Below are positions 19,539 to 59,251 of a DNA stretch of 64,000 nt, piece by piece. The stretch lies in the NCBI RefSeq assembly GCF_900104675.1, contig NZ_LT629945.1:253001-317000 (forward strand). Reading direction: 5' to 3'. Origin of the DNA: Angelakisella massiliensis (GTDB lineage: Bacteria; Bacillota; Clostridia; Oscillospirales; Ruminococcaceae). Under the pieces are notes generated by a model. That model made no database searches and was not told the origin of the DNA. It worked only from the letters and a program-made list of their open reading frames with translations. The position numbers were made by a program, and so were the translations under genes. Positions within the stretch are counted from its first letter, which is position 1, and the number at the start of each line of letters is the position of its first letter.

Positions 19539-19950
19539 GCGGCGGCAGAGTATTTCTGCCGCCGCTTGAGCATGTCGAAAAAGTTCGACACGCTTCCAGG
19601 GGGTATCCAATACCCCCTGGATACGCCGCAGGTTCCTGACGAAACCAGCGGCGATACCCCCGGTTTCGCGCCCCGGTGGGCGCGGGTCATGGTATAAAAA
19701 TCAGGCACATGTCCCTCTGAGTGTGCCGAAGGGGTTCGGCACACTTCCAGGGGGACCCAGTCCCCCTGGATACGCCGCAGGTTCCTGACGAAACCAGCGG
19801 CGATACCCCCGGTTTCGCGCCCCGGTGGGCGCGGGTCATGGTATAAAAATCAGGCACATGTCCTGATTTTTATGATTTTGAATTTTGTTTTTTCTTGAAA
19901 GCAGGTCTTTCTACAGGCTGGGCGGCGGCAGAGTATTTCTGCCGCCGCTT
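19539..19950 (+). repeat. multi-hairpin intergenic element, locus A (dimer) between two terminator copies
   Basis: A 29-bp terminator hairpin (GCGGCGGCAGA stem, TATT loop region) is present identically at 19539-19567 and 19922-19950. Between them are two tandem copies of a structured unit (about 19568-19719 and 19720-19880) and an AT-rich tail ending TTTCTACAGGCTG. Each unit has five parts in order. These are a TCGAA/TTCGA-type hairpin, a CCAGGGGG...CCCCCTGG hairpin, a CGCCGC...GCGGCG stem with inner GGTT/AACC, a CGCGCCC...GGGCGCG hairpin, and a TATAAAAATCAGG arm. Only the second unit completes this last arm, with CCTGATTTTTA. It is unlikely to encode protein: frames are short and differ between copies. 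Confidence 0.85.
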
Positions 19951-19958
19951 CTTTTTGT
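19922..19958 (+). terminator. distal copy of the ntpD terminator
   Basis: The GCGGCGGCAGA/TCTGCCGCCGC stem is followed by TTCTTTTTGTTTT. It is the copy with the proper T-run. The proximal copy at 19539-19567 leads directly into the repeat element. Confidence 0.85.
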
Positions 19959-20071
19959 TTTAAAATTTGCATTTATTATGGTATAATGCTAGTAATATTT
20001 CGTTTTGTCTTCCTGTTTGCAGGAAAAATTTCAAATTTCAAACACATATCATTGGAAAGGGGTGCTTTATT

Positions 20072-39446: not shown

Positions 39447-39484
39447 CGCCCGGGCTCTCCCAAGAATTTGGGAGAACCCGGGCG
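39447..39484 (+). terminator. GC-rich hairpin downstream of the MATE gene
   Basis: CGCCCGGG-C-TCTCCCAA pairs with TTGGGAGA-A-CCCGGGCG. It lies 200 bp after the MATE stop and directly abuts truncated repeat copy B. There is no T-run after it because the repeat begins there. Confidence 0.6.
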
Positions 39485-39488
39485 TCTC

Positions 39489-39579
39489 AGCGTGGCGAAA
39501 AATTCGGCACACTTCCAGAGGGTATTGGATACCCCCTGGATACGCCGCAGGTTCCTGACGAAACCACCAGCGATACCCC
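39489..39579 (+). repeat. multi-hairpin intergenic element, locus B (3'-truncated)
   Basis: It shares the AGCGTG(G/C)CGAAAAATTCGGCAC hairpin, the CCAGAGGG...CCCCCTGG hairpin and the CGCCGCAGGTTCCTGACGAAACC segment with locus A. It stops at GATACCCC. The last two hairpins, the tail and the second terminator copy are missing. It lies between the convergent MATE and MerR genes. Confidence 0.8.
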
Positions 39580-45135: not shown

Positions 45136-45402
45136 AGGCCAGGTGGAATCAAAGGGGTTCCACCGGGCCTTAAGCGTGCCGAAAAAATTCGGCACGCTTC
45201 CAGGGGGACCCAGTCCCCCTGGATACGCCGCCTGGTTCCTGACGAAACCAGCGGCGATACCCCCGGTTTCGCGCCCCGGCGGGCGCGGGTCGTGGTATAA
45301 AAATCAGGCGCATGTCCTGATTTTTATGATTTAAATTGCATTTGTTCTTTGAAATGTTTTTCTATAGCCTGAGGGACCGGTGGAATTTGATTCCACCGGT
45401 CC
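45136..45402 (+). repeat. multi-hairpin intergenic element, locus C (monomer) between two terminator hairpins
   Basis: One unit (about 45172-45331) has the five hairpins described for locus A, including the complete AAAAATCAGG/CCTGATTTTT arm pair, and an AT-rich tail ending TTTTTCTATAGCCTGAGGGA. It is flanked by two related terminators with a GGTGGAAT...TTCCACC stem, at 45136-45171 and 45374-45402. The second has the T-run. It lies between the convergent HAD and MerR-RDD genes. Confidence 0.83.
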
Positions 45403-45471
45403 TTTTTGTGCGCCATATTTTTTCGCTGGGTACAGTATTTTATCTTGTTCCGAAAAAGTTTTCCAAGCCTT

Positions 45472-58618: not shown

Positions 58619-58796
58619 ACTGTAAAAGCCTGTTTCAGTGAAAAATTAAAGCCGGATGTATGCCTCTTTTTATATTTCTGTTGGTACCTGGAGGATGAGA
58701 ACAGTAGCAGGCGTGGTTACCGGTTTTTCAGCAGCCGTCATCTATCCAGGGGAATTGGGTGTGCTCTAAAAACAATATGGGCTTTTTAAACATTCA

Positions 58797-59207
58797 GGGG
58801 CGCAGTTCCAAGAACTGCGTCCCTCAGACTGTAGAAAAACCTATTTTAAAGAGCAAACAAAATTCAAAGTCCCCATAAAAATCAGGACATGCGCCTGATT
58901 TTTATACCTTGACCCGCGCCCACCTGGGCGCGAAACCGGGGGTATCGCCGCTGGTTTCATCAGGAACCTGCGGCGTATCCAGGGGGACTGGGGCCCCCTG
59001 GAAGTGTGCCGAATCCTTTCGGCACACTCAGAGGGATATGCGCCTGATTTTTATACCACGACCCGCGCCCATCGGGGCGCGAAACCGGGGGTATCGCCGC
59101 TGGTTTCGTCAGGAACCAGGCGGCGTATCCAGGGGGTATGGGATACCCCCTGGAAGCGTGACGAACTTTTTCGACACGCTGGGGCGCAGTTCCAAGAACT
59201 GCGCCCC
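58797..59207 (-). repeat. multi-hairpin intergenic element, locus D (inverted dimer) between two terminator copies
   Basis: Read on the minus strand this repeats the locus A design: terminator copy (59181-59207), two tandem hairpin units, AT-rich tail ending TTTTTCTACAGTCTGAGGGA, and a second terminator copy (58797-58823). The two 27-bp terminator copies (GGGGCGCAGTTCC...stem) differ at one base. The junction between the two units (TCCCTCTGAGTGTGCCG) is the same as in locus A. It lies between the convergent prpF-type and surface-protein genes. Confidence 0.85.
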
Positions 59208-59251
59208 TTTCTTTTTTAACCGGAAAGCCTTGCTTTTCCGGCTTTCATTGT

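Follow-up and report, generated by a model that had tools for sequence, protein, structure and literature searches.

How did the gene ntpD of Angelakisella massiliensis come to be followed by two copies of one terminator hairpin with a 354-bp element between them? The locus, here locus A, lies in a 64-kb stretch of DNA (C6:253001-317000, in the following the window) of a genome of 4.04 Mb that is 97.8% complete (G000). An earlier note on the window had described the 29-bp hairpin as unchanged on both sides of the element, with a T-run at the distal copy only, and had proposed that the element inserts at terminator stem-loops and duplicates about 30 bp of them. Both observations were borne out. 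The hairpin GCGGCGGCAGAGTATTTCTGCCGCCGCTT was found identical at 19539-19567 and 19922-19950, with the copies 354 bp apart, and the T-run CTTTTTGTTTT at 19951-19961 follows only the distal copy. The proximal copy runs directly into the element, which starts with GAGCATGTCG. The features of locus A are:

19539..19567, + strand: proximal hairpin copy, exact 29-bp repeat, without T-run
19567..19582, + strand: left terminal inverted repeat TGAGCATGTCGAAAAA (family consensus TGAGCGTGTCGAAAAAG), its first T overlapping the hairpin copy
19568..19921, + strand: MITE of 354 bp with a 149-bp spacing of the repeat, coordinates read from the sequence
19904..19921, - strand: right terminal inverted repeat (family consensus, read inward, TCAGACTGTAGAAAAACCTG)
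19922..19950, + strand: distal hairpin copy, followed by the T-run at 19951-19961; in the same-genus genome G009 this place holds one homologous terminator

The MITE of locus A consists of a hairpin-rich unit reaching to 19717, a second unit at 19718-19866 and an A+T-rich right tail of 55 bp (19867-19921). It is short and without a transposase gene. Two open reading frames of at least 100 amino acids (302 and 106, both on the minus strand) start inside it and extend over ntpD, and neither matched a family in NCBIfam or Pfam. The consensus ends of the element family are imperfect terminal inverted repeats, agreeing at 12 of 16 positions (TGAGCGTGTCGAAAAA versus TCAGACTGTAGAAAAA). Further copies were located in the window at loci B, C and D:

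39447..39484, + strand: left hairpin of locus B, read from the sequence; the truncated copy has a hairpin on its left only
39488..39579, + strand: truncated MITE copy of locus B without right end, read from the sequence
45136..45171, + strand: left hairpin copy of locus C, loop inverted relative to the right copy
45172..45371, + strand: one-unit MITE of locus C (repeat search, right-end pattern)
45372..45404, + strand: right hairpin copy of locus C with T-run (flank alignment, sequence read)
58796..58824, - strand: hairpin copy of locus D beyond the right end of the element (flank alignment, sequence read)
58825..59180, - strand: two-unit MITE of locus D (repeat search, right-end pattern)
59181..59209, - strand: hairpin copy of locus D beyond the left end of the element (flank alignment, sequence read)

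The flanking hairpins at C and D had been described as matching each other. This was found for D, where 28 bp aligned with a 96% match, while at C the copies match mainly with the loop inverted (score 42 inverted versus 23 direct), the stem being the same and the loop flipped. Such loop inversion between hairpin copies was seen at three loci (window 45136-45404, L072 and L132; rows 26, 34 and 62 of the copies, row 34 being locus C) and looks as if the stem-loop had flipped after duplication.

Copies of the element and their flanking hairpins

A core pattern of 22 bases, with up to 3 mismatches allowed, matched the whole genome 135 times, and the right-end pattern matched 66 times (57 of them exact, 6 with one and 3 with three mismatches); the reversed controls gave 0 in both cases. 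Setting aside two right ends without a recognisable unit (rows 44 and 64) left 64 testable copies. The element is built from one to about ten tandem units, each hairpin-rich and about 150 bp long, and contains no recognised gene. One unit was found in 41 of the 64 copies; arrays of about ten units are larger than the usual size of a MITE. Identity to locus A is 86-97% in most of the long copies listed. Hairpins are predicted all along the body of the element, with a predicted folding energy of -96.6 kcal/mol for the element of locus C. In the first stem the two arms vary together: AGCGTGTC with GACACGCT occurs 29 times, AGTGTGCC with GGCACACT 6 times and two further perfect variants once each, and 4 copies carry mismatches. 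These coupled changes indicate that the fold of the element seems to be kept; our guess is that a kept fold might be of use in rendering the element harmless in a 3' untranslated region.

Between 6 and about 10 near-identical units stand in tandem at C5:80538-82045 (L009), C5:786607-788343 (L140) and C6:908946-909856 (L105). Within the array in L140 (C5:785000-790000) an N stands at about C5:788.1k, and the stretch beside it equals the flank of the copy at C6:118k, which looks like a mis-join of the assembly. Of two insertions shared with the same-genus genome G009, L018/L308 has 3 and L066/L311 4 units in G000, and each has 1 in G009; the number of units may vary between the species or may have collapsed in the fragmented G009 assembly.

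For the 64 copies each left flank was aligned with every right flank. The median score was 50 for the left and right flank of the same copy versus 12 for all other pairs (99th percentile 22, maximum 42), and 48 own pairs scored above the 99.9th percentile of the other pairs. By alignment score, the own right flank was the best match for 51 of the 64 left flanks. Inspection added rows 10, 23, 25 and 26, raising the number of copies with matched flanking hairpins, that is with a flanking target duplication as known for MITEs, to 55 of 64. In row 10 the true left hairpin AGAAGAGCCCTTGCGGCTCTTCT, visible in L140, is the same as the right one; in row 23 the left end is truncated; in row 25 the own right flank ranked second behind a look-alike hairpin; and in row 26 the loop is inverted. 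No matched hairpins were found in 9 of the 64 copies (rows 2, 16, 17, 29, 36, 37, 41, 47 and 54). Two of these, rows 36 and 37, have A+T-rich direct repeats of 7-8 bp at the expected boundaries, and in L225 the repeat is about 9 bp; a hairpin is thus not strictly required. In L225, L088 and L089 the element sits at A+T-rich sites without a hairpin, between short direct repeats of 7-9 bp, which is possibly the default duplication length where a hairpin is absent.

Using a score of at least 30 as cutoff, 48 duplications were regarded as clear. In these the duplicated stretch is a complete stem-loop of 20-43 bp (median 30) with a sequence specific to its locus, and 16 of the 48 pairs are identical. 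Its median folding energy is -21.8 kcal/mol versus -7.3 kcal/mol for shuffled letters (n=48), and in 43 of the 48 cases no more than 3 bases at either end are left unpaired beyond the stem. Like terminators in either direction, 27 of the 48 stretches are rich in T at their right outer edge and 19 are rich in A at the left one. Changes in base pairs were counted in the ungapped non-identical pairs, with 7 gapped pairs excluded. Both arms were changed at 5 base pairs, 4 of them still paired; after one-sided changes 13 still pair and 3 do not.

Relatives with and without the element

In G009 the hairpin duplication was found at 14 of 19 usable copies and at none of the other 5, after 8 of 27 copies had been dropped at contig edges or for a missing end; some of these insertions are at the same place as in G000 and are therefore not independent. 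The earlier note had predicted a single terminator in the interval between ntpD and yitT where the element is lacking. This is what G009 presents: ntpD (protein 94% identical) and yitT are neighbours with one terminator between them that aligns with the hairpin of locus A, and the element is absent. Two arrangements had been named as contrary, an empty site that already holds two terminators and a fixed unit of element and hairpins. At locus A neither was encountered: one terminator stands at the empty site, and the hairpins, being locus-specific, form no fixed unit with the element. On a contig assigned by name to Angelakisella (82% protein identity) ntpD is likewise followed by a single hairpin, judged by eye, with a different gene next to it.

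Empty sites in G009 were sought at nine loci, namely A, C, D and six located in two further stretches, of which all but C6:112k could be assessed, and only locus A was two-sided. The sites C6:902.8k and C6:908.9k are without the element and show one hairpin by eye and one shared flank in the contig read; C6:118k is without the element, with the hairpin present and one shared flank. At locus C and C6:921k the element is absent and the neighbourhood changed. Locus D has one hairpin and, 91 bp away, a truncated remnant of the element, and a remnant also lies near C6:115.7k.

A search of 119 genomes of the same family including its own, scoring up to six candidates per genome, located the element in its own genome and, at 71-73% identity, in G117, plus a 32-base match in G037. 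G117 belongs to another genus. Of three copies examined there, one (L343) has the exact 22-bp hairpin GGCCTGCCCGATAGGGCAGGCC on both sides, a second (L345) lies between related hairpins, apparently with an inverted loop (score 26), and for the third (L344) no hairpin match was found in the part of the flanks compared. The element was not found in the plasmid and phage collections searched, and viral contigs gave no match to one exact 20-base pattern of it.

Insertion sequences of the IS1182 family

The ends of the MITE match those of insertion sequences of the IS1182 family whose transposases exceed the cut-off of 270 bits of model NF033551. Its left consensus is identical at 15 of 17 positions to the end upstream of the transposase gene in L258, L259 and L262, and its right consensus agrees with the downstream end at 19 of 20 (L258, L262) or 18 of 20 positions (L259, L257). 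Among 61 genomes of the same family including its own, matches above the cut-off were found in 3. In G017 an insertion sequence of 1585 bp with a transposase of 397 bits (L258) lies between exact 27-bp hairpins, and in G034 one of 1564 bp with 389 bits (L259) between exact 37-bp hairpins; both transposases carry DDE_Tnp_1_6 and DUF772. Among plasmids, 6 places were fetched from 40 listed of 1710 records with a match. On an Enterococcus faecium plasmid an insertion sequence of 1518 bp (466 bits, L349) is flanked by a hairpin repeated exactly over 20 bp, and on a Providencia rettgeri plasmid one of 1598 bp (490 bits, L350) by a hairpin repeated exactly over 18 bp. Exact hairpin duplications of 18, 20, 27 and 37 bp are present at four full-length IS1182 copies in four genera, and as these have their own transposase, the behaviour is not limited to the MITE. 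A further plasmid copy (L351) is cut by the end of the record and adjoins a hairpin on its visible side, and the flanks read of three ISEfa7-like plasmid copies (L346-L348) contained no hairpin repeat. In two decayed IS1182 copies (L260 in G038, L262 in G066) the hairpins adjoining the two ends do not match each other, as recombination between copies might leave; the ends of L260 are less like those of the MITE (at best 13 of 17 and 14 of 20).

In ten genomes, its own and nine of its genus, no IS1182 transposase above the NF033551 cut-off was found, and the genome of the MITE itself gave no autonomous IS1182 element. G009 has a relic and, at a contig end, a C-terminal piece of an IS1182 transposase, where the right end of the insertion sequence (TCAGCTTGTAGAAAAACCTG) adjoins a hairpin. 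When an autonomous copy was sought with the terminal repeat as the sole query, further relics or chance matches came up. Eight weak matches to the IS1182 model in G000 turned out to be an IS5-family element (NF033581, 351 bits, cut-off 140) with other ends by eye. Its eight almost identical copies (L229-L238; C6:537k, 681-683k, 1792-1794k, 2837-2839k and 2958k), six of them in three tandem pairs, include one that lies against the end of a gene resembling, by eye, an rRNA methylase.

Mechanism, alternatives and known systems

The duplicated hairpins are real, and the insertion at terminator stem-loops put forward in the earlier note was right in essence, being supported by the copies across the genome and in G009, the empty site, the IS1182 ends and the duplications at IS1182 elements. 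DDE transposases join the 3' ends of an element to staggered positions of the target, and repair duplicates the sequence between them. The joining chemistry is set out in the consulted part of PMC5678879. Very probably, the MITE is mobilised in trans by a DDE transposase of the IS1182 family, with joining at the two feet of the stem-loop and duplication of the whole hairpin. The transposase would bind both terminal repeats of the MITE and join its 3' ends to the two 5' feet of a stem-loop, mostly an intrinsic terminator, that would be extruded as a cruciform or as single-stranded hairpins. Two strand joins offset by the whole hairpin, followed by gap filling, would leave one hairpin copy on each side. 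The structure of the target and not a fixed number of base pairs would then set the length of the duplication; this length varies with the hairpin, from which we infer that the stem-loop is folded at capture. Since it is the distal copy that retains the T-run, transcription of the upstream gene would still stop, beyond the insert.

Hairpins directly adjoin both ends in nearly every copy, which would also fit terminal hairpins that are part of the element and move with it. We give this next to no credence, as the hairpin sequences are locus-specific (median score 50 for own versus 12 for other pairs) while the long element copies listed are mostly 86-97% identical to locus A, and as G009 keeps the homologous hairpin at locus A without the element. 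The same single hairpin in G009 argues against a replacement of the stem-loop in the manner of IS1272, with the second hairpin brought in by the element. IS1272 is a member of the same family that targets hairpins, several of them confirmed terminators, according to the parts of PMC4923244 and PMC5678879 consulted; the target hairpin is nevertheless present twice here, in its own locus-specific sequence, and not lost as in IS1272-type insertion, which makes replacement extremely improbable. A tandem duplication of the terminator beforehand, or a homogenisation of the hairpins by gene conversion, with the element arriving later between them, is favoured by the way the copies evolve as hairpins: 4 of the 5 two-arm changes in the ungapped non-identical pairs are still paired, and at three loci (rows 26, 34 and 62) the better match is the one with an inverted loop. 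Such a course would need independent events at about 50 loci with the boundary always at the end of the element; exact repeats are also found at full-length IS1182 copies, and the sole two-sided empty site has one hairpin. We regard it as very improbable.

Other enzymes share either the targeting of hairpins or the duplication of palindromes: group IIC introns are known beside terminators, CRISPR adaptation duplicates a palindromic repeat of about 30 bp, and HUH/REP transposases belong to the same circle of candidates. An origin by a group IIC intron reverse transcriptase, a Cas1-like integrase or an HUH/REP transposase is nevertheless very improbable, as both ends of the element match IS1182 ends and a DDE transposase accounts for the terminal repeats as well as the duplicated target. 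No Rfam family reached the gathering threshold within the 64-kb window, so that it holds no group II intron of the types represented in Rfam. The ideas of a group II intron, Cas1 and HUH were dropped on the match of the element ends to IS1182. The IS1202 family had been the first guess because of its long duplications, and its ends do not fit. One of its subgroups has target duplications of 16-28 bp, for which no target was found according to the part of PMC10132070 consulted. The outer ends of its Acinetobacter members are TGT/ACA in the abstract of that paper, in contrast to the ends GAGCGTG.../...CAGTCTG of the window element, which match those of IS1182 copies.

The preferred reading, an IS1182-type MITE, places the element beside several known systems. 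It shares with the full-length copies L258, L259, L349 and L350 the insertion at the foot of a stem-loop and the exact duplication of that stem-loop, and with L258 and L259, where these were compared, the terminal sequences; it differs in having no recognised gene and in its hairpin-rich units of about 150 bp. BOX elements of pneumococcus are modular intergenic repeats with a variable number of internal units, and the likeness to them is one of architecture only. MITEPye1 of Paracoccus yeei is also a MITE with IS1182-like ends, but has 1-3 copies per chromosome and 4-bp repeats in the part of PMC11578231 consulted, compared to dozens of copies and hairpin-length repeats here. Repeats of 4 bp have likewise been published for IS1182-type elements of Paracoccus, and for the IS1182-type ISPse1 in the consulted part of PMC3281130. 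The earlier note had called both the size of the duplication and the hairpin target unusual. The latter has to be tempered, since IS1272 and TnSha1, IS1182-family elements of staphylococci, are described in the consulted parts of PMC4923244 and PMC5678879 as targeting hairpins, several of them confirmed terminators, without specificity for primary sequence. Both papers cite the review of Siguier and colleagues for palindromic targets in the family. In contrast to the window element, IS1272 and TnSha1 remove all or part of the stem-loop without target duplication (same parts of PMC4923244 and PMC5678879); duplication of the whole hairpin is drawn in PMC5678879 (2017) as a hypothetical pathway (Fig. 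13, pathway b). In the literature searched, which was largely without subscription papers, we found no account of an IS1182 element or MITE observed to duplicate a whole hairpin. ISfinder lists a wide range of IS1182 repeat lengths, and hairpin-length ones may already be recorded there without comment. For a MITE with IS1182 ends that duplicates its hairpin target, the targeting of hairpins by IS1182 was already known, and the observed duplication of whole hairpins appears to be new.

As a rule of thumb, each insertion sequence has a near-fixed duplication length. A transposase that measured its target by structure and not by base pairs would be an exception to it. We lean toward the view that it is the shape of the target which IS1182-type transposases with TCAG...CTGA ends recognise, capturing an extruded stem-loop and joining at its two feet, with a duplication as long as the hairpin (18 to 43 bp seen), and that the terminator, being duplicated and not destroyed, would keep the transcription stop of the host intact, a self-repairing safe site that let a passenger without transposase exceed 60 copies. 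Dozens of natural insertions in one genome, together with full-length insertion sequences in other genera, offer material to test for cruciforms or single-stranded hairpins at terminators in living cells. They also provide many natural examples of the duplication pathway drawn in the consulted part of PMC5678879, in contrast to the replacement pathway of IS1272.
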